From assembly GCA_022925895.1 (NCBI GenBank), contig JAKSYS010000238.1:16995-80994 (forward strand): DNA of 64,000 bases. The letters are read 5' to 3'. A program made the translations under genes and the position numbers. This DNA comes from Fragilaria crotonensis. Taxonomy: Eukaryota > Bacillariophyta > Fragilariophyceae > Fragilariales > Fragilariaceae. Below, piece by piece: positions 25,080 to 55,002 of the stretch. Each line of letters starts with the position of its first letter. The first letter of the stretch is position 1. A model generated the notes under the pieces. It was not told the DNA's origin, ran no database searches, and saw only the letters and a program-made list of their open reading frames with translations.

Positions 25080-25179
25080 CTACACGGCTTCTTGAACTCT
25101 GTCGACATCATCTTCTTCAGGAGCTGGTGGTTGCAGTTGTTGATGCTGTGCATGGGCGATCAGGAGCTGCATATTGAAT
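25080..25179 (-). pseudogene. Gene X, 3' end (beyond Copia-2)
   Basis: The last 30 or so codons of gene X: MQLLIAHAQHQQLQPP, then an acidic EEDDVD tail and a TAG at 25080. Removing Copia-2 and one TGAAT copy joins this in frame to the part at 32404-32740 (…VYNEF then NMQLL). The acidic tail resembles the DLDDDDP end of the homologue X' at 50216-51880. Confidence 0.75.
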
Positions 25180-25582
25180 TGTGAGACCCTCCCTAGTACG
25201 GCGGCTCCACAAACAGTGACTCGCTTGGGAGTCGGGTTAGGACAAAGCCGTCGCAATGAAGAGGAACGAACGCAGAAGCAAGAAGGCACGACGCGTGGCG
25301 ATGTCGATATCGAACGTGTGATGGGTGATGTGTTGGCGTTCGTGTTGTGGCTAAGTATATCCTTCGGCCTCTTCACCCTTACGATCAAATGGACCGGCAA
25401 GAATGCGATTGAGGGAATAAAGGATTATATTAGAAGTTGTGTGCCGATGGAGTACATCGGCCTTAAGCTAAATTAGTCGGAGTTGCGCATTTGATAGCGC
25501 ATCAGCATCGACCGTAGATAGTCGACCGTGCGCAGTAGACAGTAGCACGGTGTCATGGAGATATATAGAATATGCACTGACA
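25180..25582 (-). repeat. Copia-2 3' LTR (element is on the minus strand)
   Basis: 403 bp, TGTGAGACCC...GCACTGACA on the plus strand, 402 of 403 positions matching 32001-32403 by eye. On the minus strand it is preceded by AATGGGAGTG, a polypurine tract. Parts such as ACAACTTCTAATATA, GCATTCTTGCCGGTC, GATCGTAAGGGTGAAGAGG and AGGGAGGGTCTCACA are shared with the Copia-3 LTR, so the two elements are related. Confidence 0.95.
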
Positions 25583-25645
25583 CACTCCCATTGTGAGCAT
25601 AGGTCGCAATGAGCAAACAGAAGTGCATCGGGAAGAGAAGAGAGA

Positions 25646-27805
25646 TTAGGGCGACATTGGTGCCCAGGGAGCGCCATAGTGACCCATGAGACGACGGACA
25701 TGACGATGGTGCAAGGTGGAGCCGAGTGACTTTGTCAAGGAGTCCGCAGAATTGACGACGCCAGGGATATGAGAGAGAACAATTTCTCCATTAGCCTTCC
25801 ATTCTTGCAGAGCGAAGTGCTGAATGTCGATATGGCGCGCACGTGGCGTTGGACGACTTGCGTTCACCATGAGGATGGCAGCGGCGTTATCTTCAAACAG
25901 GGTCGTCGGTTCGAGCTGTGGATAACCGAGTTCGAGAAGTATGGACCGCAAGTATTTCGCAATCTTGGCGGCGTGAACGGCAGCGAGGAATTCCGCCTCA
26001 GTGGAACTCGTGGAGACCGTCGATTGTATCTTGGATTTATACGCCAAGGGACCACCGCCGAGCATGAAAACGAGACCGGTGATTGAGCGACGTGTAGTCA
26101 GATCGGTAGCGTGCGCGGCATCCACGTATCCGGCGAGTTCGGTAGGCGACTGTGGTTGCGGGAAAACAGGGAGAGATGGATCGGATGGCAGAGGTTGGAA
26201 AACGCCGGGCGGAAGCGATGTAATGAGAGTGCGTCGCCAATAGAACAAACCCCAATTTTTCGTCATACGAAGATATCGCGCTACGCGTCGTAGGGCATCG
26301 TAGTGGACTTTAGCCGGATGATCGGAGAAACGAGCGAGCGTTGTGACTGCATATCCAATGTCCGGTCGAGCGACGACATATGCGTAAATTAACGCGCCCA
26401 GGACACTTCGGTAGGAAAACCCAGCAGCCGTTTCAAGGTCACGGGATTCGGCAGTGTCATCACGAGGCGCAGTGGCGTAATCATCAAACATTTGTTGTGT
26501 TGTTGATGCGGCAAGAGGTTCAATTGGCTTCTCGTCAGCCTCACGTGATCCGGAAGATGACCAACCATAGTGCGCGAGCAGTTTGTCGATGTAAGACTCG
26601 CATGTGATCTTGATATATCGATCACATTGTTCGACGTCGACGCCATTGAAAGAATCCAAAACACCTTCGTCACGAAGATCGATACCGTCCTCAGAGCAGA
26701 TGATGCGCACAAGGTCTCTGATCGCGTCGGGATTGACACAACCGATGGCCAAGTCATCGACTTGGCGACAGATGAGCATGCGATGGCCTTTGTAGACGCC
26801 TTGGTAGAGACTTCGCTCATGGGTTGTTGAAGTGAAGCCATGACGAGCGATGACGGAATTCACAAACTTCTCCCAAAGCGCGCCAGATTCCGGATGACCT
26901 TGAAGGGCATGTTGGACAGGGAGCACCATGTCACGAGAGATGGCAACCTCGTATCGAGCAAGATACCAATCGGCATACTGGTCGTCGATGACAACGAAAG
27001 TCGGTTGATTCGGTGGCGGTGAGTTCGCGTATGCGTTCGTTGCATCCACTTTTAAACTGACGAAGCCCTCGTGGGCACACAAGGCAAAGAAAAGACGCAT
27101 GCAAGGTTGTTCGATACAACTAGAGTAGGTGTTAGCCAACTTTAGTTGAGGTGCCGCACGAGGGGATCCGTCGCAACAGTTTCTCGCCTTGCGAGTGCCA
27201 TCACCTTTGATGGCGTAGTTCCAATGTTGACGAAGGACAATCGCATCTTTTGGTGCGGGGACAGGGGCACCATACATTTCCTGCTTTGCCATTGAGTCAA
27301 GCTGTTTGAATTCAGCAGCTTGCCACTCTTTCCAATTGGGAAGACGTCGGAGTTTACGTCGCGTGAAACTCCCAAGGCCTTGTTCTTCGGATGTTCCATG
27401 AGTCGTTGTGTTGAGCGATCGCAGCAGAAGCTGTACATGGTCATCATCGAGTTCGTCGGTATTGTCATGACGAGCGACATCATTGTCGATGGACTCTGCC
27501 GTCGAAGGTGAAGAGTTGATCGACGAGATGGTACGAAGCTGATCAACCGACAGATGAAGCGGCTGGTCGAGATGTCGATCGGTGACGGGGATGTATCGGT
27601 CGGGAGCGAACACGATCTTGAAGGACGGTGCGTCGGAAGCCACAGCGGCGTGGAGAGCATCCAGGATGGACGCCGCGGTGAACACGGCCACGTCGTTGAT
27701 TGAACGACGAAGGCGCCGATATACTTTCGACGAACATTTCGGATCCGAGAGGCAGTGGTGTTTGGTATTACTCCAGAGACAAAGCCTCGTTTCCGAATAT
27801 GACAT
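25646..27805 (-). CDS. Copia-2 reverse transcriptase and RNase H (C-terminal pol)
   Basis: An open frame of about 719 codons, the C-terminal part of pol. Motifs: HWNYAIKGDGTRKARNC, LKVDATNAYANSPPP (motif A), LQGHPESGALWEKFV, ICRQVDDLAIGC (motif C, QVDD instead of YVDD). RNase H shows AGYVDAAHATDLTTRRS, STSSTEAEFLAAV and FEDNAAAI, and the C-terminus has ARHIDIQHFALQEW and SADSLTKSLG. The first part, up to about 27700, is the shadow of the integrase frame; true coding in this frame begins near SINDVAVFTAAS. Family function: cDNA synthesis. Confidence 0.92.
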   Translation of the reverse strand: MSYSETRLCLWSNTKHHCLSDPKCSSKVYRRLRRSINDVAVFTAASILDALHAAVASDAPSFKIVFAPDRYIPVTDRHLDQPLHLSVDQLRTISSINSSPSTAESIDNDVARHDNTDELDDDHVQLLLRSLNTTTHGTSEEQGLGSFTRRKLRRLPNWKEWQAAEFKQLDSMAKQEMYGAPVPAPKDAIVLRQHWNYAIKGDGTRKARNCCDGSPRAAPQLKLANTYSSCIEQPCMRLFFALCAHEGFVSLKVDATNAYANSPPPNQPTFVVIDDQYADWYLARYEVAISRDMVLPVQHALQGHPESGALWEKFVNSVIARHGFTSTTHERSLYQGVYKGHRMLICRQVDDLAIGCVNPDAIRDLVRIICSEDGIDLRDEGVLDSFNGVDVEQCDRYIKITCESYIDKLLAHYGWSSSGSREADEKPIEPLAASTTQQMFDDYATAPRDDTAESRDLETAAGFSYRSVLGALIYAYVVARPDIGYAVTTLARFSDHPAKVHYDALRRVARYLRMTKNWGLFYWRRTLITSLPPGVFQPLPSDPSLPVFPQPQSPTELAGYVDAAHATDLTTRRSITGLVFMLGGGPLAYKSKIQSTVSTSSTEAEFLAAVHAAKIAKYLRSILLELGYPQLEPTTLFEDNAAAILMVNASRPTPRARHIDIQHFALQEWKANGEIVLSHIPGVVNSADSLTKSLGSTLHHRHVRRLMGHYGAPWAPMSP

Positions 27806-28820
27806 TCTTTGATCTCGAAGCCGAGGCTGGGATGCTCACAAGAAATGTGAGGGGACAGTTCATCGAGGCGGTCGAAAGGATCGTCGGAAACATCCAAGTT
27901 GAGGAGCGGGAGGTCTAAACGATCAGGTTCGATGACGCCATCGTCGGCCAGGTTCCGTAGAAGCTTTACGTTCGGAGGCGGCTCACTAAGATCGTTCATT
28001 CCTTCGTCGAAGCGCGCATGGGTGGCAGTCTTGACGGTTGAGCTGGCAAGGTCGAAGTAGTACATGACCTTCAGGGAGCGCGAGTAGCCAAGGAAGGTGC
28101 CGAGTCGAGAGTTGGGAACGACGCGACCGTAGCGAGCGGTTGTTGGGCGCACGTGCATACGACATCCGAATGTCCGAAGCTTTGCCAGGTTGGGGAGCGG
28201 AGCGCCACACATTTCGTATGGGCTCGACGGTCGGTCGCCATGGGGAACAAAGTTGTAGAGTCGGATGTAATGGTAGAATGCATATGGCCAGAAGTTTGGT
28301 TGTAGATTCGCGCCAGAAAGCATGGCACGAAGTGCATCGCCGATTGTCTGGTGTGGTCGTTCGCCAGGTCCATTTTGGTGTGACGAGTCGGGACCAGTAA
28401 GCTCAACTGCGTAGCCAAAGTTCGCAAAGGTACGGTGAATGTCGCGACATTTGCCGAGTTCGCCACCCCCCATCCATGCGAACATACTTGTCTGGACAAT
28501 TAGGAGCATTGCTGGCAAGCCAGCTATTGATCCAATCGACGGGAGGAGCCTTTGTTGGGAAGGCACGACCGAATATACGGCCACTGAAGTGGTCGGTCAG
28601 TAGGACATAGCACGTCTCACCGTTGAGGCCGACGAGAGTGTTGTGTCGGATTGAATCGCGGCTCTTTTGGACCATGAAACCAAAGTCGATTGACAGGCCT
28701 TGGTTGCAAGTTGTCGCCCGCATTGTGGTCCCTGTTCCTTTTGGAGTCTTCCGAAGCTTAGCGGCAAGGCAGATGGGACATTCTTCGAGCTCCGTCGGGA
28801 GCTTGAATTGTGGCATTCCT
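27700..28820 (-). pseudogene. Copia-2 integrase region
   Basis: A zinc-binding part starts near 28820 with LWHQRLGHINFRRL (in the frame ending at 28758) and CPICLAAKLRK (about 28770). The catalytic core has GLSIDFGFMVQ (first Asp), VRMDGGGELGKC (second Asp, across a frame change near 28480) and HQNGPGERPHQTIGD (Glu). The GKR-like block TARYGRVVPNSRLGTFLGYS follows. At about 27700 the coding frame shifts to the reverse transcriptase frame. The integrase inserts element cDNA; here the 5-bp duplication TGAAT fits. Confidence 0.85.
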
Positions 28821-31075
28821 TTTTACAAACCGGTGCATTTCTGATAAACGCCGGAAATTTATGTGTCCAAGGCGTTGATGCCACAGCATTCGCAAGGCCG
28901 AGCGGCTGAGGGATCGCACGACGTATGCTTCCTGGTGGTTCGGCGAGAATTCCGGGAGGTCTTCGTCGGTGTCCAAGATGTCAGGACGTTCGGTAATGAT
29001 GTCCTGGTAATCGATTGTACGGAATTCAAGACCTGCGGGAGCCATCCCATACCCATAGATGTAGGGCCTTGCGTTACCGTCAGGTGAAACGGGCAACAGG
29101 CCTAACGGTGGGTCCAGGGCAGGTGGAGAATGGCATGCGGTGCAAGTCATGCCGTCGGTCGGATCGAGGATCGTGGCGGCAGTGGCAGGTGCATGTTCCG
29201 TGCATAGTTTCCGAACGAGGACTTGATCCGAAGGGAGCGGAGCCAGATGGGCTTCGGGCGACGGAGCAATCAAGGCTTCGGTGAACGTCAAACCTCCTCG
29301 ACTTGCCGTCGGTTGCAAGATAATGTAGATGTCTTGCGAACTTCGGAGGCGATTCGGGAAGTGAATATGTCCGATGCTCTCGGTGAAGCTTGACATGTGG
29401 TATCCATCGGTGCCCAGCTGCTTCGAAATGGCTGCGTGCGAAATAATGATGCCTGGAATTGTGGGGAGTGTAGTACGTCCGAATGAACACGGACGATGGG
29501 GCCTCCGGCATTTCCACGATTATCCACTGGTACACACAAGAAACCGACGCCGACAGGTTGGTGCGCGTGATGACCGGCATCAAAGAGGCGGACGTTTGTG
29601 CGGCGGAGTGGACGATAAGCAAACAAAAGGTGGCGATCGTTGGCAGTGCAAGCCATGGATCCGTTGTCAGCATGTGCGAACGAGAGTTGGCGGGCACGAT
29701 CATATGTCTCGGCCAACCGACGAAGCAGGATGGGATCGGGAGCAACGTCGAGACGGACGGTGTCGGACGTGGGAAGGGCAGGAAGCACGTCGGCAACTGA
29801 AATGGAGATCGAATTGACGTTGGGGGCTTCGAAACAGGCTTCAAAGTCGACTTCGTCTTCAGCGGTGGCACGGAGCGAATTCTGTTGATATCCCACGAGA
29901 TCTTCTTTGTCGCCGTCGTCGTCGTCGTCGTTGGTGGCGGCGACGTCGATGTTGGCGGGTTCATCCTCCAAGATGCGATGCATTACTCGATTGTTGGCGC
30001 CAAGAGGTGGACGGTTGCGGGTGTTGGCAGAGTTCAGACGGCTGCGAAATTGTTTGTGTGAATTCGCAATCTGAGCCTTGAGCTGGGGATTGCGTTGTGC
30101 TAATCCTTCAGCGACGATATAATCCACAAAACGGTTGCAATCTTCCAGCTTGTGACCCGGGAGTTGGCAGCCAAGGCAAACGGAAGACGCATCTTGGTTT
30201 TGAGAGATAGCCCGAACCATGAGATTGATTTCATCGTCGAGGGTGGCGTCTGACGTCGACGACGAGAAATCCGGCGACGCGGTTTCGATCCTCCGGATGA
30301 TGGACGTCGGCGTTCTTCCTGACGGCGGATGCTGCGAGGATGGTGGGTCGCGGCCAATCTCGGAGGCATACTCGACGAAAGTCGTCGCGAGTTGCGCCAA
30401 CGAAAGTTTGAACGGAAGCGTGCCGTCGAGGCCGGTGCGCTTGTCGCGTTCGACTAAACGTCGGATCTCGGGACGCCATTCGGACGTCAAATTGCGGACA
30501 GATAGATCGAGGGCCTCCGATTCGGTGTACGTGCGAGTGGCTTGGCGCTCGCGTACCATGAAGTCTTGAAGCCGGCGGATGTACAAGCTGAATGTCTCCG
30601 TTCGTCGTTGGCGGGGAATTTCGCTTGCGGTCGAGAAGACTGAATGCAACAGGGGATGGTGGAGGCGAAATAGGGAGTAGATAGCATGGTATCCCGCCTG
30701 CGGTGGGCATCCTTCAACAGCGCCATGCTCTCGGGAGCCATTGGGGAATGTGGAGTCCTGGCTCAAAGCAGTGTAGATCAGACCGGACATGAAGGAATCT
30801 TTCTCTCGGACGGAAGCAGGGAGCCAAGTCCACCAAGCACCGTGGATTTCGTCTTCCTTTGCGGATTCATACGGCGGGCACCACACTCCCCATTGTAAGC
30901 ATGTGGAACAAAAGAGTTTGAACCAGTGCACGAACGAATCATTTTTGGATGAGTCGAATCTTGGGAAGCTAGCCTTACGAAAATCTTTGAACTTGACCTC
31001 GCCATACATGAATTGACTCATGTAATCTTCGTAGGATTCGGCGCCGAAGGTGACCTCTGCAGAGAAAGGATGCAT
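28821..31075 (-). pseudogene. Copia-2 gag and protease, with pre-integrase segment in a shifted frame
   Basis: Gag probably starts at the ATG at 31075 (MHPFSAEVTFGAESYEDYM); the frame is open upstream to a TTG at 31096 overlapping the stop of the previous ORF. The capsid part includes WFKLFCSTCLQWGVW and RQRRTETFSLYIRRLQ. A single CCHC knuckle, CLGCQLPGHKLEDC, lies near 30190-30150. The protease region has HADNGSMACTANDRHL near 29640, with DNGS as the likely active site. At about 29430 the frame shifts to a segment continuing to SALRMLWHQRLGHINF, the gag-pre-integrase part. Confidence 0.85.
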
Positions 31076-31092
31076 ACGTGTAGGTGTCCGAG

Positions 31093-31821
31093 TCAAATTA
31101 CCACCAGTTGTGCGTGGGCGAGCCGCCGAATTGAAGAGGGGGCGAGGTTCCGGGGGGGAGTGTGGAACCGTCCAGCAGTGATCGGAGGGCCGTGTCCGCT
31201 TGTTGGGCGAGTGTCCACCGGTTGTCCACGGAAAGTGGGAAGTGCAGCCGTGGAGTCGGCTATCTCAACGTCCTCGACGGGCGGTGCGATTTCCTCGTTC
31301 ATGCCGGGTGCGGTCTCGTTGATAGGGGCGTCCATCGGGGCAGACGTATCAACCACCGAAGGAGGGCCCTGGCGCGAGCGATGAGATCGACTCTCGTGAG
31401 TGCTCTGGGAAGATGCAGAGGATCCCGGCGGCTTTGGGATGTCGATATCCGGAAGTAGGAAGCGGATCATGATAGGGACGTGTACGATGTCGGACGGGCG
31501 AGAACGTTCCTTGAGACGTTGGACGATGAGGCGCTGGAGCGCCGGCTTTCGTAACGAGATGACGGAGTTGCGGCTGCGGGCGTGGTACATGCCAAATCCG
31601 GGGTCGGTCAGTGTAGGCAATAACTCTTCCGACAACCATGTGGTGTCTTCGAGTTGTTGGAGAACGCAGTTACGGATGGTGTCGTGATAGGTTTCCGTAA
31701 GTGACATTGTAGGCACATCGAAGATCTCTGTGAGTGGGATTTCTGCCATCGGGCAGTCCACAATATCGATGGTTATAACGAGACAGTCATTGTCGTATTG
31801 AACCTCCTCGGCGTCCACCAT
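31093..31821 (-). CDS. Copia-2 first ORF, domain shared with Copia-3
   Basis: A 242-codon ORF starting with ATG at 31821 (MVDAEEVQYDND). It has a folded-looking N-terminal part of about 130 residues and a Pro/Ser-rich C-terminal part. The core contains TIDIVDCPMAEIPLTEIFDV and SVISLRKPALQRLIVQRL. Copia-3 encodes a clear relative (VDVADSPIAELRLSEIYDV, DVISLRKPAMERLIRQTL). It stops at 31093, overlapping the gag frame by 4 bases. I do not recognise the domain. Being conserved in two elements with related LTRs, it is probably an element gene and not captured host sequence. Confidence 0.75.
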   Translation of the reverse strand: MVDAEEVQYDNDCLVITIDIVDCPMAEIPLTEIFDVPTMSLTETYHDTIRNCVLQQLEDTTWLSEELLPTLTDPGFGMYHARSRNSVISLRKPALQRLIVQRLKERSRPSDIVHVPIMIRFLLPDIDIPKPPGSSASSQSTHESRSHRSRQGPPSVVDTSAPMDAPINETAPGMNEEIAPPVEDVEIADSTAALPTFRGQPVDTRPTSGHGPPITAGRFHTPPRNLAPSSIRRLAHAQLVVI

Positions 31822-31986
31822 TTTGTTATCGGGTTTCAGAAATATGCGGTCCCGGATGTCTGGTCGGAGAGTATTTTTAACGCGGAGTGGCTACGTGGTT
31901 CCCGATATCATGTGAATCGTGTGACACCGAAGAACGCGAGAGAACTCGAAATCAGTCGGAGAGTGCGCAGAAAACAGTCGTAGAAT

Positions 31987-32000
31987 TTGGGCTCATAACC
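31987..32000 (-). other. Copia-2 primer-binding site, half-tRNA type
   Basis: On the minus strand, the 14 bases right after the 5' LTR read GGTTATGAGCCCAA. The complement, TTGGGCTCATAACC, fits the anticodon stem and loop of initiator tRNA-Met (GGG stem, CAT anticodon). Drosophila copia is known to prime from such a tRNA fragment. Confidence 0.85.
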
Positions 32001-32403
32001 TGTGAGACCCTCCCTAGTACGGCGGCTCCACAAACAGTGACTCGCTTGGGAGTCGGGTTAGGACAAAGCCGTCGCAATGAAGAGGAACGAACGCAGAAGC
32101 AAGAAGGCACGACGCGTGGCGATGTCGATATCGAACGTGTGATGGGTGATGTGTTGGCGTTCGTGTTGTGGCTAAGTATATCCTTCGGCCTCTTCACCCT
32201 TACGATCAAATGGACCGGCAAGAATGCGATTGAGGGAATAAAGGATTATATTAGAAGTTGTGTGCCGATGGAGTACATCGGCCTTAAGCTAAATTAGTCG
32301 GAGTTGCGCATTTGATAGCGCATCAGCATCGACCGTAGGTAGTCGACCGTGCGCAGTAGACAGTAGCACGGTGTCATGGAGATATATAGAATATGCACTG
32401 ACA
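32001..32403 (-). repeat. Copia-2 5' LTR (element is on the minus strand)
   Basis: 403 bp, matching 25180-25582 except position 32338. It is the promoter-bearing LTR of this minus-strand element. Confidence 0.95.
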
Positions 32404-34003
32404 TGAATTCATTATACACAATTGTCGGTGCTGCGTTGACAACTTCTGCCTCAATGTTTTCCCTTCCTGCATCTCGATTACGATCACCGTATGATTGTAT
32501 CATTTCCCGAGGGAACCACTGATCGAACTCTTCGCCCCTTTCCCTTCTGTCGTTATAGACCAATACAGCCAGGTTATTGAAACGCTCCATTCCTTCCCTT
32601 GACCAACTTTGCTTGGTGCCCCTTGTTTTGCCCGTGTACCGTGGGTTAATGACTTCAGGTGCAGGTTCGTCGGCGGGCGGTCCATTTCTGTTAACCATCC
32701 ATTCGTAATGCCATTGTTGCCAGTAATTTTCAAGACACAAGAGGAGGAATGCCTCATCTGTGACAGTGAACCACTCACTTAGATGTTTCTCGACCTATTC
32801 TCCTTGAATTTGGTGGCTCCAACCACAGTCTTCAGCAAGTCGTCCAATAAGTCCATGTAGATTTCACCCTCCAAAGCGCCATTTCTCAATGCTATGATTC
32901 GGTCCATGCTAAAGACTTCATTAAATCTGCCTTTCTTGGCAGTATAATATCTGTGTATCGAGGAGAAGAAGGCAGCACACACTCAGGGTTAGATGTTCAG
33001 AATTAAATGGTTGAAATGGACGCCGCAACCATCTTACCTTGGAATACTGTTTTTATCTTCTTATTGTGTTGTTCCTGTGCCTATATATCGACTCTTTCAC
33101 TGTTTTCCTTGCAGTCTCCCACCAGTTCTCAATATTACGATTGTCTACATCTAGCACCGCCGCCATGCATCGACAAATGGACATTTCGTTGTTGCTGAAA
33201 TCTAGGTCGCCATCAGTCACAAACTTTGTTTGGGGAACACATATTCCTTCACACTTTTGAATTGCAAACTTATCCGCACTTGCAACAGTGTTGCGTTGTC
33301 CTCCTTGTCCGCCTTGCCTCCTCCTTGTTGCTCCGCCACCTTGTATAGCAACTCCACCCCTCGAGCAAGAAGCGCCTCACCAACAAAATCTTGTCCAAGT
33401 TTGCAGGCATAACTGCTGCTGGTGCAGCATTTATGCCTACGCCTGCATAGGCACGGGCAGTAGCAACAGCTGCTGCTCCTGGTGCTGGAGCTTGCGCAGC
33501 AGTAGTAGTAGGAACACGCCGGGCACTGGCATGTGGAGCAGCACGGGAACGCTGGCCTCCTGCAGGGATATCAGGTGCTGATGGACCTGGTATCCCTGTA
33601 GCAGCACCCAAACTGGCACGAGCAGCTGCACCTCTTGTGTTTGGTGATGGTATGACTGTTGAAACCGCCGCCACTCTGGCAGCTGAACCTCTTGTATTTG
33701 GTGATGGTATGCTGTTGAAACCGATGCCGCCGCCACTCTGGCAGCTGCACCTCTTGTATTTGGTGATGGTATGACTGCTGTTGAAACCGATGCCGCCGCT
33801 TCAGTGCTCACAGGAGTTGTCCGACTGTTTCCAGGTGCTACTCTGCTGCGCGTTACTCTTGCTGCTGCTGTACGTGGTGACTCATCAGGATATGGTTGTG
33901 GTCTTGCCTGGTTCCGCCGAGTATTCACGTTCCCTTGTGCTGCACCTTGCGCATTACCCCTTAGTAATCTTGTGCTCTGACGCACTGGGGACGACGACAT
34001 CAT
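32404..34003 (-). pseudogene. Gene X, 5' and middle part; interrupted by Copia-2
   Basis: Starts with two consecutive ATGs at 34003/34000 (MMSSSPVRQSTRLLRGN). The N-terminal region is Ala/Ser/Thr-rich and disordered, with about three imperfect repeats of a unit containing VSTAVIPSPNTRGAAAR (33800-33620). Then comes SICRCMAAVLDVDNRN (about 33170-33110) and, in another frame, KGRFNEVFSMDRIIAL. The last block, KQSWSREGMERFNNLAVLVY (about 32605-32550), is shared with X' (GGWSREGTARFNELYNLV). Several frames are used, so either it is decayed or it has introns that I could not prove. The function is unknown. Confidence 0.6.
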
Positions 34004-35200
34004 GCACCGCAATGATATCAACACACAAATCCTCACCTCCTTACCTTCTGCAGCTATGCGACAGCGGTTGGTAACCGTAGCAGAATTCAGCAATGTCACA
34101 CTATATGGCACAACAAAGCTATGTTCTTTAATCCAGGTTTCAATGCATGCAACAACGCCTTCTTCTTACTAGAAGGCAAAAGAGTAAGAGTAATCAAACT
34201 GGTGTGGTGACTTCTAGTCGTGGTGGCGACCTTTTTGAATGGACTGATGCTGTGGTGGTGTTGTTGTACAATAATCTATGAATGAAAAAAGTTCGTTCGT
34301 TTCAAATATGTATGTATCTTATATACTTTAATATTTACGTAACATAAATTAAAACTTATATACAAATGCAGAATAAACTGTTCAACGCATATTTAGATAT
34401 ACATTGGTGAAATGGCGAAGGCTTTGGTTTGAATGATGCGTAGATAAACATACAATTTCTTAAGTAGCTACGTTCAAAATATATATGATCGTTGTGTACC
34501 GTTGTATTTTCATATTGTACTTTAAAAGACATGTTTATACCTTATACGCTACTAAACGCATATGTATGTACATGAATAGGCAGTCAAATATACGACAGCG
34601 AGTTTACCGGCAGGCTCTCGCATGTCTCTGCAAAGGACCTATATTTTTACTTAGAGGAATATGCGTTGCACAATGTTATACTCCTTAAAGTGTTCATATA
34701 TGTGTATAAATAAGCAATACGTCCAACCGTTTATCTTCTTACGGATAGCCTAGTATGCTTTGGACCTTCTTCGCCGCCGTACATTTGGTACTGAGGAACT
34801 ACGTAGCAGGTAAAACACTTTTGCTAAGTAATTTTGACCATGCGTCCCGTGATTTTCTCGTACGTAGTCGTAGTACATTTTGTACCACGGCTGTACTTCG
34901 CCGAAAATGTCGTTCAGTGTTTCAGCGAAATACACAAGTTTTGTTGATTTCAGGTCCTCCTCACTGCAACAACACATCACAACACCAATTACAAGCAAGA
35001 ACACTTCACAACAGTTGCTTTGTTGAAGTCTGCCATATAGCTGACGACAACAAAGCAAAGCACCCGCCATTTGAAGAAAACCACAAGCAACAGTTGCTTT
35101 GTTGAGGTCTGCCATATAGCTGACGACAACAAATCTATCTTTTGTTTCCACCTGATTATCATCGTTCTGTCCCTGCCATATAGCTTGGACATACTTTTGC
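34004..35200. other. Divergent intergenic region between gene X and gene B'
   Basis: About 1.2 kb, AT-rich between about 34280 and 34740. Near the B' side it holds a direct repeat of about 45 bp (CAACAGTTGCTTTGTTGA and following, at 35010 and 35089) and three CTGCCATA motifs. The minus-strand open frame across 34750-35373 has no convincing protein features and I do not call it. Confidence 0.6.
35030..35180 (+). promoter_or_regulatory. Three CTGCCATATAGC motifs upstream of gene B'
   Basis: CTGCCATA occurs at 35030-35037, 35109-35116 and 35173-35180, each followed by TAGC. The last copy ends 20 bases before the B' ATG. Gene B has the same octamer three times in the equivalent place. A binding site or promoter element is inferred from repetition and position. 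Confidence 0.5.
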
Positions 35201-37413: not shown

Positions 37414-37505
37414 CGGCCATTTGTCCCTGTCATTTACGACAAGGACATCTCCATTCAAGTCACTGCTGCAAAGAACGAGGCATAAGGCGACCAGTGCGGT
37501 TGCAC

Positions 37506-38322: not shown

Positions 38323-38327
38323 CCCTT

Positions 38328-38831: not shown

Positions 38832-38845
38832 GGTTATGAGCCCAA
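38832..38845 (+). other. Copia-3 primer-binding site, half-tRNA type
   Basis: GGTTATGAGCCCAA directly after the 5' LTR, identical to that of Copia-2 and complementary to the anticodon arm of an initiator tRNA-Met. Confidence 0.85.
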
Positions 38846-42533: not shown

Positions 42534-42987
42534 CTTCTTCGAAGAGCATCAATAGCAACAATGACATGTGCCACACCTCTGACGATGGCCGACAGATTGA
42601 GTGACCACTCTTTGAAATCGACCCCACAATCAAGTGATCTGGAATCAGCGTACGAAGGTGATAATTGTGATCCATTGCTCGACGTCGTTTGCCCGCCCTC
42701 CAACGGCGCGGACCTGAGCTGATTCCCAGTCTCCGTTCTTGTGATGTATTGATCCATGCCTTGCTGGCTATGCGTATATCGTCACGACATGACCGATTAC
42801 GCATTTCGTATGATGCTGCTTATCAAAGCATGGAGCGAGCCACTTGACCCCAACAAATCAACAGATGGTCTTTTGGTGTGCTGCAATACGCGCCTATGTC
42901 TACCTGTCATAGGTTCGTTGTGATGTGGCGTTGGTATTGAAATTGCTGACGGTGCCATCGGAACTCTCGGTTTACTCTTGTTTAAGT

Positions 42988-44417: not shown

Positions 44418-44456
44418 TTGTTTAAGTGTTTCCGATGTTACTGGTATGACTCCGAA

Positions 44457-46017: not shown

Positions 46018-46032
46018 TGGTATGACTCCGAA

Positions 46033-48358
46033 AACCATGACTCCCTCAACTGATAACGAGAGGAATGGCATCAAAAATCCTTCGCTTAACAGCAAACCAT
46101 CATTCAACCTCCGGTTTCAGCGATAGGGATAATACTCGCGAGGAAGGTGTTATGAAAGATTGTTGCCTCAAGTGCTCAAGTGCCTCTTGAATCCTTGGAT
46201 GCCAATGGTATAATCACAAATAGACCCGTCATGAAGAACAGTGCCTACGTCTGCGCGGATGTCGCCCTAACAGGTCAATGCACCATCAAGGGGATGAATC
46301 GGACAACATACCTGTTTGACGTGTGTTACTATGGTGCCGTTGATGACGCTGACTCCGGAATGGCAATGACAGGAATTACCATCCTCTTATTGGAGTCACT
46401 CTTCAAGCTGGCAAGAAGAATACAAGCAACAACGGTGTGATCACTGCTGTACCAACGGGTAAAAGGTGGACACCCAACGCGCTTTTCCCTTTTTGCTGCA
46501 GATATGCACCGACTGTCGATGGCATTCCACTGACTGACTCCACCACAGTCAACACTTTCGTTACCTTTGGAGCCAGTAGCTTATGTTCCGGTCCCGACCA
46601 TGGCCCAGTATACCCAGGCAACGTTGCCGACTACCCTGCTGCATGTGATGACGACACAGCACGCAATTCCTGGGCCACATCACACAGAAGCTACTGCCAC
46701 ACTGTATTGGCAGTGCCCATGATCACATCCGTGGCACCCTGATGACGTGTCACCCGGTCAATTGTGGACGCCTTCTTTTGGACACTTCAATCTCAGCTCC
46801 GTCTTCGTCTTCCGCTCAAGTTGTTGCCAATAACCCCCTTTGCGGTTGGACAAGGGACACTCCTTTGGGCACCACTCTCCAGGCTGGCGCTTCACACCAT
46901 TCAGAAAGCCACTTGGCCTACCGCTACGAGCATTTCGTCAGTGTAATGCCCGCTCCTCTTGCTTCTACCGGGCTGCCCATTCTCCTGAGGTATCAACCAG
47001 ATGACCGTGGACGCCATTTCCTTCTAGCTGGACCCTCGGCGCGTGTTGCTGCCAATTATTGATGCCTTTTTCGCCCCGATCCCGATTTCTTGCCAAGGAT
47101 TTATGTTCTGATCCATGCACTCGGACTTCATCATTCCCTGCCCCCTACCAAAGATGCTTGCAATGGGGGAGTGTACATCCGTGCATGCAGTTTGCTATTT
47201 GAACACAACTTGTCCGAGCCAACGCAGAGCCCAGCGCCTGCTAATCTTGACTACCCCGGCTTTCCCACTCCGGACTCGCATGCAGTCTTCAATGAGCGGA
47301 TGGAGAAGTTAGAATTGCAAAGCTTGCGCCTGCTTTCGATGTGTTGTTGGTGTTGTCAGATGAAGAGAAACGCACCCTCCAAATCGGACATTCCAGCTCC
47401 AACAAGAGCAACAAAATCCGCGTGATCCTCGCAGGGATGTGGATAATTGCAGTAAAGGAGGCTTTCCCGGATGAAGCAACGGGATGGAAGCTTGGACCCA
47501 AATGCAATGTTCCTCTCCCAAATCTCCCGGTCTCAAGCAATCGAACGTGGCCGACACCTCCGCTTTCCTATGATGCGGAAGCACACAAGCCTCGCCGCAC
47601 GCCGACAGGGGCACAATCGCCTTCGCCTGATGATACTGTTGTTGAGGTTGCCTTCCCGAGCAATAATGACATGCACCTTTCTTGCAACACCGACATCTGC
47701 AGCAATATTCTCGTCCGTACCAAGGATTATAGCAGGAAGCAATCAATACTTGAAGGCCTCCACAGAAACAAGATTCCCAGCTGGTTGCTCCTCTTCATGC
47801 TGACGAGGCATCAGCCAATTGACGGTCGTTGACGCGCATTGCCCCCCAAAAGGTGTCACAAAAGGTTCTAGACAGCTACAATCCCTCGCTTCTTGACTTT
47901 GCCTTTCATCAGGAGCCTGATTCGAACCTTAAGATTTGTTTGAGAATGTCGCCTGCCTCTGTGTCAGATGCGGATTCCCAAGGATTTTACCAGCATGATC
48001 CTTTCCAGTTGACGGAGATTCACGCCGCGTTCACATTTCAACATGCTACAGCTGCAATTGTCGACCCCCCATTGCATCATGCATCAAAAGATTGCGGCCG
48101 TCGCTTGTGAAATGTACCTCCCGCACTCCTTTTGCACATTGTTGAATCTCACCACGAGGGTATTTCAGTGCATTCAGTGCTTGCGTATCCAGTACAGTAC
48201 ATTTCTTCTCGGACAGTACTATATATTTGAGTATACAAAGACAACCAACCACAGCACCGAGAGAGCAGCTACAAGTACTATTCTATCTTCCGATCGGATG
48301 TGGATGCACTCCTATTTGCTCATTGTTTGGCTCTACCGATGCATACAATGGGGGAGTG
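46033..48358 (+). other. Copia-3 internal region downstream of the short elements
   Basis: Overlapping open stretches of 60-165 codons in changing frames (for example 46180-46440, 46437-46742, 46742-47062, 47090-47425, 47341-47832). None shows a motif that I recognise, and no reverse transcriptase or integrase signature is present. An AATGGGGGAGTG polypurine tract lies at 48347-48358 just before the 3' LTR. A near-copy of tract plus LTR start (CAATGGGGGAGTGTACATCC) is at 47160-47179. Confidence 0.55.
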
Positions 48359-48865
48359 TGTCAGTGCATGCTTCTCCTATCGATGCAATTCAGTACTGTG
48401 GTACGTGTTACTGCATCTACATGCAACAGTATACACATGCATGTACTGTGCTACTGGCCACGTGCATGGATACGTGCTTCTATCCATACAGCATTCTCTC
48501 GAGTTTACCTGGTACCCAATACTAGATAGTCTAATTGGAGCTCTTTCTTGTGCTCCACCACAACTTCTAATATAGACCCTTTTATAGCCTCAACTGCATT
48601 CTTGCCGGTCTCGACGATCGTAAGGGTGAAGAGGCAATAGGGCTATTGACAACAACGCTCACACTACTAAAAAGACGAACGGTAACATTGTACGACAGCT
48701 CATCATACTTCATTGAGTGTCCCTGATCGTTTCATCGTGATTCACCCGTTCCAATTGGCGGTATTGATCTATCAACCGCCGCCGCATTCGTCGACGTTTG
48801 TGAGCCACACATTTCACCCCTCCTACCCCTGAGCGTGAGCGCTCGTAATTAGGGAGGGTCTCACA
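48359..48865 (+). repeat. Copia-3 3' LTR
   Basis: 507 bp, the same as 38328-38831 apart from a CCA indel. It ends GGGTCTCACA at 48865, before the CCCTT duplication. Confidence 0.95.
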
Positions 48866-48870
48866 CCCTT

Positions 48871-49860
48871 CAATCGCGGAAGATACTTCACGATGAGGCG
48901 CATAAGAGAAGCAATTGCAGCTTCAGCCTTGTCCGCCTCACCAGTTGTATCGTTGACATCCCAAAATGTGAACTGATCCAGCCAAGCCTCAAAACACAGA
49001 AGGCATTCGATTGTTCCCAAAACAGCCTCCATATCTGCGAAGTGTCTCTCGAGGAGATGCCATCCTTCAACTTGCATTGTAAGGGCCGCAAGCAGGAAGA
49101 GAGTGCCGGACTGTTCAGAACATTCGACCTGGGAGGTTTGTGATTCCACGTGAGAAGTCAGTCCGTGGGAAACTAGATCGTATAGTTTGACGACAGGTCT
49201 TGTCAAAGGAAAATGCCATTCCATCAAGCTTTGCAGTGATTCATTGCTAATCCCTTTCTTGAACGATTCGAGGCGGTACATGATGATACCATGTTGTATA
49301 GTATGCATGACATCAATGACAGCGCACATAAAGATACCATGTGCGTTTTGCCCCATCTGAATGCGGTTGAAGGCATTATCAACCTTGTAAATCGTGAGTT
49401 CTGAAGGTCGTCGTCGGAGCCGTTGCGACAGATATCATTGATCGTGTCGACATCAGAAAGTGCACTCAACATCTGGATTGTCAAGATCGTCAAAGAGACA
49501 GTCGCATGATCGATGATGGCGATTCATACTACTGTGATGCCCATTCATGCGGCCACAAAGTTGATCCCCTTGCTTGCCATCGTTGATGACGAAGAGCAGA
49601 GGACAGACGATATCAACGACAATCCACTTCCCACAAAGTTTCAAAGGAACCTTCTTCAGTCGACAATCTTTGCCGGCTTGCGCTTCGACCATGCCCCTCA
49701 TCATGGCATCCATCACTTTGTGAAAATTACGAGTCGTTCTACCTTTTCCTTCCTCGGAAGTGCTGTTTGCAAATTGATTCATGGCACCTGATCGTCCGCG
49801 GTTCAGGTCGGGGACGTAACCCAGGACACGCCATGCACCACCATCAGAAGGTGCGAAATG
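48871..49860 (-). pseudogene. Plavaka/CACTA-like transposase, 5' part, truncated at its N-terminus
   Basis: Coding begins abruptly near 49860 with GGAWRVLGYVPDLNRGRSG and continues NQFANSTSEEGKGRTTRNFH. Then come LLFVINDGKQGDQLCGRM (core Asp region, compare GDTEGHDRLCG at 187-3366), CDCLFDDLDNPDVECTF and, after a frame change near 49470-49380, NAHGIFMCAVIDVMHTIQHG. The position that is Glu in the other two transposases (GEMLH, VETMH) is Asp here (IDVMH). The frame continues past Copia-3 into 37506-38322. There is no zinc-finger N-terminus. Confidence 0.7.
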
Positions 49861-50215
49861 TTTAGTTATTTTTAGATGTTTACCCTAAACATAGAATGAC
49901 GACCGTTCCATCGTTTCTCACAATTTTTGTTTACTATTCAAAAAATTTGGTGAAATAAACATTAAAATATTTACAAATCAAATTGTTTATTCGATTGAAT
50001 AAGTAGCTAAACATCGAAGGTATACTCTCACTATATATGTTTTATTTACACCATTTGATCAAAGCAATAGGTTTGATGTGGTGATCAAAGAGGGTTAGAT
50101 GACACCATATACGACGATGTTAAATGTTCACTATTGACAAGCAATGTTGAATTACAGAAAGATTTACTTGAAATTTGGCGCTTTTGCTTACTACTAAGAA
50201 TCACAGTCGTCAATG
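49861..50215. other. AT-rich intergenic stretch
   Basis: Between the truncated transposase and gene X'. It includes an ATGTTTA...TAAACAT inverted repeat at 49857-49897. No gene is supported. Confidence 0.5.
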
Positions 50216-51880
50216 TTACAATTGCAGCACTTGAGGATCATCATCATCTAAGTCCCACGCTGCCTCAAGTGGTACGGCATCCTGTTCCATCACCATTGCT
50301 GCAGCACCACCTCCAGCCCCTTCATCCTGTGCCGCCCCTGAATCCATTTCTTTTCTACAAAATGCCAATAATTCCTTTTCCATTGGCTTTGCTTGTTGAC
50401 ACGACCTGTCCTCTTGAACTAGGTTGTACAGCTCATTGAAACGAGCTGTCCCTTCACGACTCCAACCTCCGTACTTACAGTGTCCGCTCTTCTTCCCAGT
50501 GTACTTTCCTCGCTGCCTTGTCTGCTTATTTTCTCCTTCACTAGCACCCTTTGGCGTCTTCCACTTCTCAATGTAATTGTCGAAGAGGAGCAATGCAAAC
50601 GCCTCGTCACTCTTCGTCACTAATTTTACGTGAGTTTCTTTGTCAGTTGCCTCTGATACCAATGCCAATTGTTTTTGCTTCCCCCAACCTTTCTTCCCGC
50701 ACACACACTCCAAAAAAGTACCAAAAAACCAGAAGAATGCCCTGCGCTCTCTTTCCGTTCTTGCCCGTCTTAGCTTGCAAAGTTCATCAATGGTGAAGAA
50801 CTGTTCCACGCATTTTTCTCGAAAGCTTGCAATGCTCTCTCTCACAATCTTCCCACCAGCTTGCTCACAGGAACTTCGCTTCGTATTCAATGCTTCATTG
50901 AACACACTCTCATACAACATTTGGAACTTTCCTCGCTGATGGAGCGGCACACCCTCATGATCCATAACCAATTTGATCGCCTTTTGGAACATGAGGTCGC
51001 TGTTGATGAACTTTATCCGACGGAAGACATAATCCTTGACATAAATCCGCACTCTATCAGCTACATGCTTCTGTCGATTTCGCATTGACTCTGTCCTTGA
51101 CATTCCTCGCACGCTGATTAATCCGTCAAGATGCAAAGCTGACATAGCAGCAGCATCAGTAGTACCAACTGTATGGCTTGTCGAGATGCTTGATGCTCGT
51201 CCTGAAATAGCATTACCAGTGGGATGGTTCTTGGGTTGTCTCGGTGCCACGACTGTATGGTCAGTAGCTCTCAAGCGTTCCCAATCGCCACGTTTCCGTT
51301 TGCCACCACCAAGAATACGATCAGCAAGCTGGCCGTGTTCATGGTCCCTAACAGCATCAGGCTCCTCGTCCTCTGCGGAGCTTGAATACCATGACTCCTC
51401 CACCAGCGTCTCTAGCACCTCTTCCTCCTCGTCCTCGTCCTCCTCAACCTCTTCCTCTCCCTCTTCGTCGTAGTCGTCATCATCCTCTTCGTCCTCGTCT
51501 TCCTCCGGTACTTCATCAGATACGTCATCCTCAACAAGTTGTACATCGTCAGCCTTAGGTTTTCCTGGTGGCCGCTTTTTCTTCATGTTCTTACCACTTG
51601 GTGTTTCCTCTGTTACGTCATCAGCAGTGCCCTTCCTTTTATGAATCCTTCCAACAACCAGCACACCACTATTTTCGTTCCTTTTTGACTTTTCCTTTCC
51701 AACAAGTTTGGTATCGTCAGCAAGAGAACTCTTTTCAACAGCACTTTTACTAACCTTTTCAACAAGTCCTTTTCGAATTAGTCCTCTGCTTTCCTTACGA
51801 GCCCTGTCCGGAGTTGATGCATACTTGCTTTTGCAACGGCGAGGCGATGTTCGCACCGGAGTTGCAGGTGGCTTGGTCAT
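50216..51880 (-). CDS. Gene X', intact homologue of gene X, unknown function (554 aa)
   Basis: Start chosen at the ATG at 51880 (MTKPPATPVRTSPRRCKSK), since the frame upstream has only a TTG. The first 100 residues are basic and nuclear-looking, residues 100-165 are strongly acidic (DEDEEDDDDYDEEGEEE), and the rest is helical. Conserved points with gene X: SKYGGWSREGTARFNELYNLV-like block near residue 475 (KQSWSREGMERFNNLAVLV in X) and an acidic C-terminus. A central region has FFWFFGTFLECVCGKKGWG. No catalytic motif is recognised. It is divergent from gene B, about 1 kb apart, as X is from B'. It may be an element-encoded DNA-binding protein, but that is a guess. Confidence 0.75.
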   Translation of the reverse strand: MTKPPATPVRTSPRRCKSKYASTPDRARKESRGLIRKGLVEKVSKSAVEKSSLADDTKLVGKEKSKRNENSGVLVVGRIHKRKGTADDVTEETPSGKNMKKKRPPGKPKADDVQLVEDDVSDEVPEEDEDEEDDDDYDEEGEEEVEEDEDEEEEVLETLVEESWYSSSAEDEEPDAVRDHEHGQLADRILGGGKRKRGDWERLRATDHTVVAPRQPKNHPTGNAISGRASSISTSHTVGTTDAAAMSALHLDGLISVRGMSRTESMRNRQKHVADRVRIYVKDYVFRRIKFINSDLMFQKAIKLVMDHEGVPLHQRGKFQMLYESVFNEALNTKRSSCEQAGGKIVRESIASFREKCVEQFFTIDELCKLRRARTERERRAFFWFFGTFLECVCGKKGWGKQKQLALVSEATDKETHVKLVTKSDEAFALLLFDNYIEKWKTPKGASEGENKQTRQRGKYTGKKSGHCKYGGWSREGTARFNELYNLVQEDRSCQQAKPMEKELLAFCRKEMDSGAAQDEGAGGGAAAMVMEQDAVPLEAAWDLDDDDPQVLQL

Positions 51881-52927
51881 GACAAAGCAGATCTGCAACA
51901 AAGTGTCTTCTTTTGCGATGTGTGCGAAATTGTATGAAACTTGTGTAAAAAGCTACGTTGATTTGTTATAGATATGGCATGATGGGAACTTATTCTTGTT
52001 GTAGCATGATTTTGAACTCAACATTTTATTACGAATTGTAGACATTCATTTTGTTACTTTTCGCCATAGTTGATTTAAACACGATTTATCAGTGTCTGTA
52101 CTTACCATTTTTGTGGACGTACTCATTTAATCAAACGTATATGATATGTTGACTGTTTACATTTGTAACGTAAAAATTCAAATGAAATCATTTTTTGCTG
52201 TGCATTAATCGTACAACTGTACGTATAAAATCCACACTGCTGTACATATACATGTATACTCCGACTATCATTTTATACTATCAAACGTAGTGCGCATACT
52301 TCCATGAAAGTGCATAAGAATAGGCAATACATGAGTTCGTACAATGCAGTTATACACGTGATGTATATTCTGCATTCAACCATGTACAAATTTTGTCTCA
52401 TAATTTTCTGTGTATATCCTAAGTAATAAATTGTGTATACATGATTAAATAAATGCAAGTTGCATCATGTATATAATAATTATGTCCGGATACGTGCTTT
52501 GTAACATTTCTATCGGTATATCCTAAGTAATCATTTTACACACATATTCTAATTTGAAGTCCCACTTGAGAAATCTTTTCTGGCATAGTGCCCGTGCTCA
52601 ATCAAGTATCTTTGTAGTACGGGTGCTTACGTACTTTCCACGTGCGACGCAGAACAAAGACTGCACTCCATGCTTCTTTGCAGTCCATGGTGAAAAACCA
52701 CACAAAACTCACGAAGCCCTGGTTTGAGCTTCTTGTTAGCTTTTGTCTGTTGTTGCTGCCGGATTGTCCTCGCTTGTGTCCCACACTAGTGCTGCTCCCT
52801 GCCATACAGTGGGTGAGCGTTACGAGTGGTGGTTTTGACGCTTGCGCTTGCGCTGCCATACAGTGGCGCAAGGTTGGGACTAGACCGTCTTGCCTGCTCC
52901 TGCCATACTGTGGGAGAGAGGGCAAAC
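51881..52927. other. Divergent intergenic region between gene X' and gene B
   Basis: About 1.05 kb, AT-rich to about 52560, then GC-richer with short repeats. It matches the X/B' region in layout. It holds the presumed promoters of both genes. The minus-strand open frame 52602-53231 overlaps the start of B and has no supporting feature. Confidence 0.6.
52799..52907 (+). promoter_or_regulatory. Three CTGCCATACAG-like motifs upstream of gene B
   Basis: CTGCCATA at 52799-52806, 52853-52860 and 52900-52907, the last 20 bases before the B ATG. The first two are followed by CAGTGG, the third by CTGTGG. They match the triple motif before B'. Confidence 0.5.
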
Positions 52928-55002
52928 ATGTCGCCAAATCGGCGTGATAACGACAAATTAGCTCACAGAGAGAGAACTTCTCCTTGCCAGACATCGGTTC
53001 TGAACTTGGGGAGCACGCCACGATTGTCAGCATCACACATATACGACAAGGAGAGGGATGAACTGACTGCACTTCCGGATCGGGACCCTCGAAAGTGGCT
53101 TCCGTCGCAGGTTCAGGCGATGACTCTGTTGTCGAGGGCTGTTGTACCCGAAGGACGGGATGATTTTGTTTGCCGATTCGGGGCGGCGGTGGAGGGCGGC
53201 AGGAAGGAAGATGATGTTGCGATTTGCGCAACGCCCATTCGATGGCTGGCTCAGGCGTATCAATGTGATGTGCCTTACAAGCTTCGGGAGGCGAGTGACA
53301 TGTTCCCGGGCTCTGGGATTGAGTCAGTTTCTTAATGAGTTTTATGTCATGGACGTGATTCTCAATCGTTCGTTGTCACCGGCTGACGAGGACGACGAGG
53401 TGTTGTTGACCTGATGTGGTCGTCATGTCGCGAGCGTACGAACCGGATGATCTTGATGATGTGAATGATTTTAAGTACAGGACGATGGCCGTGTTTCTTC
53501 CTCAGTGTGGCGTCTTCTATTGTGCGAGGGAGCGGCGCCGCGAGGATGTTGGGTTGGCAAGGACACTGATACCCCTTGACATGAGCTGGCTCAGACTCGA
53601 AAGGCGAGAGTGCTCTGATGGTTCTGTGTCGTACACCTTCGGAAGCGATGGGTATGTGAAACGGTTTCACGTACAGCACGCTTCTGAGAAGTGCTACGAG
53701 AGTCGTGAGGTGTCTGCCTGGAGGATTTCCACGCGGAGGCGGAGGGACGGAAGGAGTGACCGTTTCGTTTGGCGGGTTGCTCAGTGTCACGACAAGGATG
53801 GTCCTATGATGGCGCCTGATGTTTTCTCTGGTGAGGATGCCATTGCGTGGCCACACGAGTATCTGGCGGCGGAGTACAACCGTCGGCTTGCCTCGGCGGG
53901 TAGTGCGAAGAAACATGGTCGACACTACGCTGATGGTTGTCACCACTATCGGATACCCCACACGTGTTGGGTGATTGATCCAACTGTGATGCACTGTGTG
54001 GACATAATGGTTGATGTTGCTACGGTTGGTCGGTGCGTGGACCGCCAGTCTGTTGTGATGATTCGTCATGTTTTGCGTATGGATACTGATGACGGAGATC
54101 GTGACGGGAACTGAAGGTGGAAGGGCGACGTCGGACGCCCGTGTTAATTTGGAACTAAGCAAGGCGTTGAGTCGGATCATGGCCCACAGCGCGTTGGTCA
54201 GGCGGGTTGGGACGGGTAGTGCGAGGTCGAAAAGTCGTGACGTTGGGGCGATGCATGCCATCGGAACCAGGGTTGACTTCGACAACGTCACGACAATGCC
54301 GTACCATACGAATGCGTGTGTCTCCGACCAGTCCTGCGCGACATGGTTGTGGGATTGTGGAAAGTTGGCAATCACTGTTTCCCTCAGGTGTTGGCGGTCA
54401 TCAGGGACCTTGAGCGTGATTCTGGTCTCAAGCCGATACCCCCGATGGATGGTCTGGGGAACGGGGTCGTGGAGTTGGGTTCACGATTGACATGAGCGTG
54501 AACCTTGGGAATGCGTCACACTACGATGTTCACGGCGCTCTCAGGGTTTTAGCGTGTGGACTGAGGAGGTTTTGGGTTGGGAGCAACTGGTACTTTGTCA
54601 TGCCCAATTTACATGGAAAGCGACCTGACGGACGGGCTTTCCGTGGTGTTGCCGTCAAATTGAGCTATGGGACTGCCATCAGTTGGGATGGTCGTGTTAT
54701 CAGGCATGCTACTTCGCTGTCCAAACCCGATGGGATTGTCGGTGGGAGGGTTGGTGATGATGGTTACGTTCCCAGAAACAATCTGTTCGGAACCTTCACT
54801 GCTGCGAAGGAACGGGTGATCAAGGCTGGAAGAGCTCTCTGTGCCGCTTCGGCCGCTGAGAAAGCTGCGTCGGGGTCCGATGATCGTGGTGTTGACGACG
54901 TCGTTGCCGGCACGGGGGGGGACGCACCGAGGAGTGGGCGTAAGAGGAGGAAACGAAGACGCAAGAAGTCGAGGGTGACGGTTCTCCGGGACGGTGACAA
55001 CG
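52928..55002 (+). pseudogene. Gene B, candidate 2-oxoglutarate/Fe(II)-oxygenase-like protein; interrupted by LINE-3
   Basis: Starts at ATG 52928 (MSPNRRDNDKLAHRERTS). Blocks shared with B': ATPIRWLAQAY, FYVMDVILNR, DFKYRTMAVFLP, MMAPDVFSGEDAIAWPHEY, VDVATVGRCVDRQSVVMI, NASHYDVHGA, NWYFVMPNLHGKRPDG and GTAISWDGRVIRHATSLSKP. HYD (54519-54527) and His 54705-54707 would be the metal ligands if the oxygenase idea is right. A basic tract (RKRRKRRRKKSRV) near 54935 could be a nuclear signal. Frames change near 53330, 53410, 54110 and 54480-54580. LINE-3 interrupts it after the codons for LRDGDN; the frame resumes at 63909. Confidence 0.6.

Follow-up and report, generated by a model that had tools for sequence, protein, structure and literature searches.

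In CACTA/En-Spm transposons with TNPA and TNPD, the transposase is joined by a second, possibly DNA-binding, protein. The PlavakaB elements of fungi have CATCA..TGATG ends and target-site duplications (TSDs) of 2-3 bp, and all Plavaka elements that carry a TET gene belong to PlavakaB, as stated in the available excerpts of PMC12730594. According to the literature excerpts at hand, Plavaka elements also occur in an ichthyosporean, besides a green alga; in the literature searched, no paper on Plavaka in diatoms was found, and those that mention both concern a green alga (PMC12633428) and a mushroom (PMC9674265). Here we consider a stretch of 64,000 nucleotides from the diatom Fragilaria crotonensis (contig JAKSYS010000238.1, positions 16,995 to 80,994; hereafter the window), in which two genes, X and B, repeatedly form a divergent pair. 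We conclude, with a probability of roughly 85%, that this diatom harbours an expanded family of PlavakaB-type cut-and-paste DNA transposons (CMCT clade) with three genes each, of which X and B are the accessory ones. Terminal inverted repeats (TIRs), 2-bp target duplications, copies at multiple sites and a convergent Plavaka-family transposase were all observed, and the elements were assigned to PlavakaB because their ends, target duplications and transposase fit that group.

The first-pass annotation of the window had described a divergent X-B pair that occurs twice with the same layout, with spacers of about 1.2 and 1.05 kb and a triple motif ahead of each B gene, and all of this was borne out. 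X runs from 34003 down to 25080 on the minus strand and faces B', which extends from 35201 on the plus strand (spacer ~1.2 kb); the open frame of X' (50216-51952, minus strand) faces B, which starts at 52928 on the plus strand (spacer ~1.05 kb). X is homologous to X' (28-29% over the C-terminal part common to both), and B to B' (30-60% depending on the segment, by tblastn with B). X does not form one uninterrupted gene, as its 3' part contains a Ty1/copia retrotransposon. The suggestion that the pair belongs to a mobile element was correct (TIRs, target duplications, near-identical copies and genome-wide divergent co-occurrence), but the module has three genes instead of two, including the convergent Plavaka-type transposase, and the element type is a known one. 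The second pair is not located beside the element of the first pair (E1) but inside it, as part of a second element (E2), and a third pair belongs to an element (E3) just left of the window. Since E1 is cut by the retroelements R1 and R2 and by E2, and E2 is in turn cut by the LINE-like (long interspersed nuclear element-like) R3, the DNA from 24757 to the contig end is a single nest of insertions within insertions. The features of these elements are given below; C157 denotes coordinates on the contig carrying the window, and other C or L numbers denote other loci of the same genome.

24757-49841: element E1, in the pieces 24757-25180, 32405-38327 and 48866-49841; what remains of its right end is expected past E2 and outside the contig
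25080-34003, minus strand: gene X of E1, split by R1; uninterrupted in the C170 copy, where it lies in two frames
35201-37413, plus strand: gene B' of E1, found by tblastn with B; frame broken in the window copy
37506-49841, minus strand: transposase gene of E1, in the pieces 37506-38327 and 48866-49841, split by R2; convergent with B'
49842-64000: element E2, in the pieces 49842-55002 and 63895-64000; right end off the contig
50216-51952, minus strand: gene X' of E2, a 578-aa open frame
52928-54975, plus strand: gene B of E2, broken in the window copy; a single open frame of 687 aa in the C109 copy
1-3893: right part of E3, a complete element of 10,032 bp (C157:10856-20887) that ends at window position 3893
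821-2759, minus strand: transposase gene of E3, in two overlapping frames; 2181-2759 matches PF18759 (Plavaka) at E 6.1e-8, over the cut-off

When the E1 spacer (34000-35300) was searched against the 62-Mb genome, 14 places matched, the window itself included. Ten further places matched at 97-99% over nearly the whole query, and three matches were partial (87%, 76%, and 100% over 172 bases). All three window pieces of E1 were matched at 95-99% in eight of the ten other copies, and from the remaining two, C552 and C818, only leftward parts were matched; in the C170 copy the element is 8,837 bp long. E1 has the termini CATCAGGGA..TTCCCTGATG. Its left end reads CATCAGGGAG in the window, and the left ends of 10/10 copies contain CATCAGGGAGTGCAAATCTC, a word that was first noticed at the ends of BLAST matches and then served to locate these ends; on the right, TTCCCTGATG is terminal in 8/8 copies. 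CATCA..TGATG termini were present in every one of the eight copies for which both ends were read. A 2-bp TSD (GT, AA, TA, TC, AG and TA) was found in six of the seven copies with both flanks readable, a count that leaves out C650, where the contig end cuts the right flank, and C552 and C818, whose fetched sequence holds no right end.

The left end of E2, CATCAGAAGGTGCG, is found at 49842 inside E1, directly after ..CACCAC, and is similar to the left end of E1. For E3, the TIR is CATCAGAAGGTGCG / CGTACCTTCTGATG and the flanks are TA/TA, that is, a 2-bp TSD in the one case available (1/1). The search for terminal repeats and target duplications around the pairs that had been proposed at the outset was therefore positive for E1 and E3. 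A single recent local duplication, which had been named as a finding that would refute the idea, is ruled out: there are ten near-identical copies of E1 elsewhere, a second E2 lies on C109 (in two pieces, at 98% and 94%), and the two elements are widely divergent in sequence.

The third gene of the element is a large minus-strand gene convergent with B. In the C109 copy of E2, its product matches the Pfam family Plavaka (PF18759) at E 1.5e-8, over the cut-off. A scan of the genome with this profile gave 80 matches at E up to 0.001, four of them under the cut-off, and the profile matched in 0/14 control genomes. The E1 transposase lost its 5' part in the window through the E2 insertion and has an open frame of 733 aa in the C170 copy. 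This protein can be aligned with those of E2 and E3, and it matches C131:216120-218159 (34%, E 6.5e-95), a place that also has a PF18759 match; the Plavaka profile is thus found directly in E2 and E3, and for E1 only through this homology. Following the motif definitions in the available excerpts of PMC12730594 (the residues D, D and E, plus C(2)C and H(3-4)H located after the second D and before E), we could recognise by eye H(3)H as well as D, D and E in all three transposases. The zinc motif C(2)C reads CRVC in E3 and CRTC in E2, HLVLH is present in both of these, and E1 has HEIKH. The transposase would cut and insert the element at its CATCA..TGATG ends, which were read on both sides for E1 and E3 and on the left for E2, with TSDs from E1 and E3. 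Plavaka transposases resemble those of EnSpm, and C(2)C and H(3-4)H occur in both groups, so we considered whether the elements could be EnSpm/CACTA proper; we regard this as quite improbable, since the Pfam match is to Plavaka, and CATCA..TGATG ends with a 2-bp TSD fit PlavakaB, whereas EnSpm has CAC..GTG and 3 bp (features of both groups from the same excerpts).

Across the genome, 153 B matches were counted, fragments included. For the analysis of gene neighbourhoods, neighbouring hits were merged into loci before counting, and partners were sought among the matches listed. A divergent B was present within 10 kb of 47 of the 74 merged X loci (gaps 1.5-4.3 kb), one X locus had a tandem B, and 26 had none. 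From the side of B, 47 of 138 merged loci were divergent from X, one was convergent, and 90 had no partner. The 80 Plavaka matches were convergent with the nearest B in 28 cases, in tandem in three, and without B in 49. Full trios in the order X< B> <Plavaka numbered at least 21, based on the 74 of 87 X rows given. With the E1-type transposase as query (69 of 83 rows given), 48 merged loci were obtained, of which 21 were convergent with B, two divergent, one in tandem, and 24 without B. The partnerless counts are upper bounds because only listed B matches were used and E1-type X was absent from the listing obtained with E2-type X; furthermore, as element copies share descent, none of these counts represents independent events.

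Several of these observations weigh against the three-gene transposon family. No B was found near 26 of the 74 X loci, 49 of the 80 Plavaka matches and 24 of the 48 E1-type transposase loci, and three more of the latter have B in divergent or tandem orientation. In addition, the C526 copy of E1 has no TSD, the E1 transposase does not match any Pfam family at E up to 10 and, by eye, carries CxC instead of C(2)C, and the B frame is broken in all three elements of the window contig. The 26 X loci and the majority of B loci without a partner within 10 kb would also be expected if X and B were host gene families that merely lie near transposons. This we hold to be extremely improbable: in E1 and E3, both genes lie inside the TIRs, which are bordered by target duplications, and the copies at multiple sites carry the genes in one order, and on this TIR, TSD and copy evidence the host-gene explanation was rejected. 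It had also been considered at the outset that X and B might be found mostly apart, and with 26 of 74 X loci partnerless among the B matches listed, this is not the case.

The triple motif consists of three copies of CTGCCATATAGCT before B' (at 35030, 35109 and 35173) and three copies of CTGCCATAC before B (at 52799, 52853 and 52900). Only eight [A/C]TGCCATA words are present on both strands of the whole window, and six of them are these motifs. E1 (C170 copy) and E3 each contain exactly three instances of the pattern C[CT]GCCA...AG, all of them just before B on the B strand, and all three motif copies are kept in 8/8 E1 loci tested, the window's own included. Judged from sequence comparison, the motif is a series of predicted tandem stem-loops on the B sense strand, the arms of which change but stay paired. 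In the window, these are the following (all rows of the covariance model described below):

35021-35052, plus strand: stem-loop 1 before B'
35100-35131, plus strand: stem-loop 2 before B'
35164-35195, plus strand: stem-loop 3 before B'
52790-52821, plus strand: stem-loop 1 before B
52844-52875, plus strand: stem-loop 2 before B
52891-52922, plus strand: stem-loop 3 before B, ending 5 nt ahead of the B ATG

The distance from the last stem-loop to the B ATG is 2-5 nt in E1, E2, E3, C394, C674 and C331, and 21 nt in C131. The six-base loop is similar between stem-loops; other subfamilies have CAGAAA or CAGGAA, with arms that are changed yet largely complementary. From 27 instances we dropped five from near-identical loci (C620, C110 twice, C317 and C393), and in the resulting 22 rows 77.3% of cells were paired, compared with 66.5 ± 2.1 after shuffling and at most 53.6% after sliding. 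Without the two CATTGA copies of C674, which have four pairs each, the 20 longer rows had 73.8% of cells paired versus 63.5 ± 2.0 (shuffled) and at most 51.9% (slid), and 42 cells changed on both sides versus 19.8 ± 4.0, with 0/500 shuffles reaching either value; relatedness is not controlled for by the shuffles; it is by the slides, but these are biased towards a structure derived from the very sequences tested. Because the search pattern had fixed the first two pairs of the stem, pairs 3-8 were also counted alone, giving 92/132 versus 73.5 ± 3.4 (0/20,000 shuffles). The leaders as a whole folded better than shuffled sequences in E2 (z -2.44) and E3 (z -3.17), and in each of these 2/200 shuffles were as good. 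As an independent check, the tandem pattern TGCCATAYAG..CTGCCATAYAG was searched genome-wide, resulting in 37 matches versus 0 for the reversed control, many of the 37 being copies of the same elements. A listed B match follows on the same strand in 31 cases, 30 of them within ~1 kb and the other at a distance of 2.45 kb; two further matches belong to E1 copies (window and C818) with B' outside the rows used, and four are unassigned (C230:121718, C490 twice and C594).

At E below 0.01, a covariance model built from the 20 rows had 26 matches, which are spread over 12 of the 17 loci searched and all lie before B in the sense orientation. Since each of these matches is a training row, its copy or a shifted repeat (e.g. 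L036:2229 and L036:2577), the model provides no independent test, and all it adds is that nothing else in the searched loci scores E below 0.01. This tells against the stem-loops, as do the 14/500 and 8/500 shuffles that reach two of the five stem measures (pair and type counts). The window has 17 model matches, of which the six training sites score highest. An Rfam search, confined to 34000-35400, gave two sub-threshold microRNA matches. As a separate observation, the C674 element (L036:1954-2608, minus strand) has five hairpin matches before B, one of them at E 0.011, apparently through a tandem duplication of the leader.

We see an even chance that the stem-loops act in the leader of the B mRNA, as a translational switch or as a protein-binding array. 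That the repeated motif is instead a DNA site, with X or the transposase binding to it as a dyad, is a serious alternative, although we lean against it. It would suit a motif placed between divergent genes, and in E1 two weaker model matches point the same way: the next-best match in the window at 34089-34120 (minus strand, E 0.027), which lies before X in the sense of X, recurs at the same site in C170 and might be a fourth stem-loop, and a match at 36494-36525 (minus strand, E 0.067) inside B' on the opposite strand. Before X' of E2, no model match was found below E 5. What speaks for RNA hairpins over a DNA site is that the arms vary, with free use of G-U pairing on the B-sense strand, that the reverse strand scores far lower (37.2 versus 15.4 bits at L031:7215), and that the motif pattern was not found in the rest of E1 and E3, their ends included.

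The C-terminal part of B is the most conserved portion of the protein. HxD is present in 12/12 B rows and a distal H in the 9/9 rows that reach that far (two rows being E1 copies), and by eye the order HxD..P..G-x4-H resembles that of phage TET/JBP proteins. On these motifs, B may work like a TET/JBP dioxygenase; that it is an HxD..H-type oxygenase acting on the DNA or chromatin of the element against host silencing is a real prospect, to which we give somewhat less than even odds. Much tells against it. An Arg (R-x-S) after the distal H is invariant in the ten phage TET/JBP members compared, and no conserved Arg was seen by eye in B at the corresponding strand. Profile searches of B against Tet_JBP (PF12851) and other 2-oxoglutarate (2OG) families gave no match, and an hhalign comparison with ten phage TET/JBP proteins gave a probability of 0.1 and E 0.51 from shallow alignments, with the HxD motifs unaligned; they were likewise unaligned in a script-based profile comparison with 90 phage TET/JBP sequences. 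AlphaFold models of the whole of B and of its C-terminal part were unusable (predicted local distance difference test (pLDDT) 32 and 36, predicted template modelling score 0.29 and 0.38, respectively), and Foldseek with the C-terminal model (pLDDT 36) gave no match at E up to 0.001, and 20 when the limit was raised to E 10. Because homology was supported by neither Pfam, PDB, hhalign, script nor fold, B was not filed as TET/JBP. Of note, phage Nigel gp2 itself matches Tet_JBP at E 4.3e-6 with 26.5 bits, under the curated 34.9. We are slightly inclined to think that B is another enzyme or a structural protein, in keeping with the absence of a profile, sequence or fold match to any oxygenase family in these searches. 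Opposed to this are the invariance of HxD and the distal H in the rows seen, the G-x4-H spacing shared by eye with phage TET/JBP, and the TET/JBP genes that some fungal Plavaka elements carry (available excerpts of PMC12730594). No B relatives were confirmed in viral contigs. The N-terminal tail of X is basic and acidic and its C-terminal part is conserved; X could, as no better than a guess, be a DNA-binding helper. Pfam, NCBIfam and PDB-sequence searches with B, and with X as single proteins, gave nothing usable.

The retroelements that interrupt E1 and E2 are as follows (LTR, long terminal repeat):

25181-32404, minus strand: R1, Ty1/copia LTR retrotransposon, with LTRs at about 25181-25582 and 32002-32404 and the TSD GAATT
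38328-48865, plus strand: R2, LTR element, with LTRs at 38328-38831 and 48359-48865 and the TSD CCCTT
55003-63894, plus strand: R3, LINE-like element inside E2, with a 14-bp TSD (54989-55002 and 63895-63908) and frames of 412, 413 and 1883 aa

The LTRs of R1 (403 bp) are 99.75% identical and those of R2 99.4%, and for both insertions the C170 copy of E1 has the empty site; R1 matches RVT_2 at E 3.7e-15. R2 contains a block of 60-bp tandem repeats and long repetitive frames twice (42987-44415 and 44465-46013, 89% identical to one another), and the frame at 40093-41817 has a weak RNase-H-like match (E 0.24). In the 1883-aa frame of R3, endonuclease, reverse transcriptase and RNase H can be recognised by eye, with no Pfam match at E 0.01; a search with 2 kb of R3 found two other places in the genome, matching at 98-99% across most of that length. 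Directly left of E1 lies an array of 93-bp tandem repeats (23787-24138), and further mobile-element-like genes to the left of E1 are located at 13618-15630 and 5151-6731 (RVT_2, E 2.2e-14; Exo_endo_phos, E 1.2e-9).

As far as the literature searched shows, this kind of transposon is known, and what is new are the host group, the gene set with its two accessory genes, and the structured leader. The analysis places PlavakaB-type transposons in a diatom, as a family with the 153 B matches given above, and it can be used to test whether demethylating enzymes are also carried by non-fungal transposons; in the host genome, C5-methyltransferase matches are present, and no Tet_JBP match was found at E up to 1. 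Its silicon-transporter matches (down to E 4.0e-193) mark the host as a diatom. As a means of controlling a transposon gene, the covarying hairpin array would be unusual, and it is open to direct testing. At its most far-reaching, and rather unlikely as a whole, the picture would be of a stramenopile Plavaka lineage that has in B a highly diverged DNA-acting dioxygenase of its own, unconnected with the captures of TET/JBP in fungi, with an output controlled by tandem start-codon RNA hairpins read by X or a host factor, i.e. a self-regulating anti-silencing cassette.

Altogether, the diatom elements can be set beside four described systems. The EnSpm-Plavaka elements of the green alga Auxenochlorella (PMC12633428) are likewise of the Plavaka type in an alga, and accessory genes are not mentioned in the available excerpts of that report. 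CACTA/En-Spm with TNPA and TNPD is alike in its second-protein setup, with X as a putative binding protein, but differs in termini and TSD length. With the TET/JBP 2OG-Fe(II) dioxygenases (fungal transposon-borne; phage gp2), B shares the HxD..H order, G-x4-H by eye and a Plavaka-type carrier; unlike them, it has no profile match, no conserved R-x-S seen by eye and a long N-terminal half without a known match. Closest are the PlavakaB elements of Agaricomycetes (Kojima 2025, PMC12730594, in the available excerpts), which are alike in termini, 2-bp TSD, Plavaka transposase and, in some families, an accessory gene, whereas the diatom elements differ from them in carrying X and B divergently, in a B that is unrecognisable as TET/JBP, and in the predicted tandem stem-loops ahead of it.

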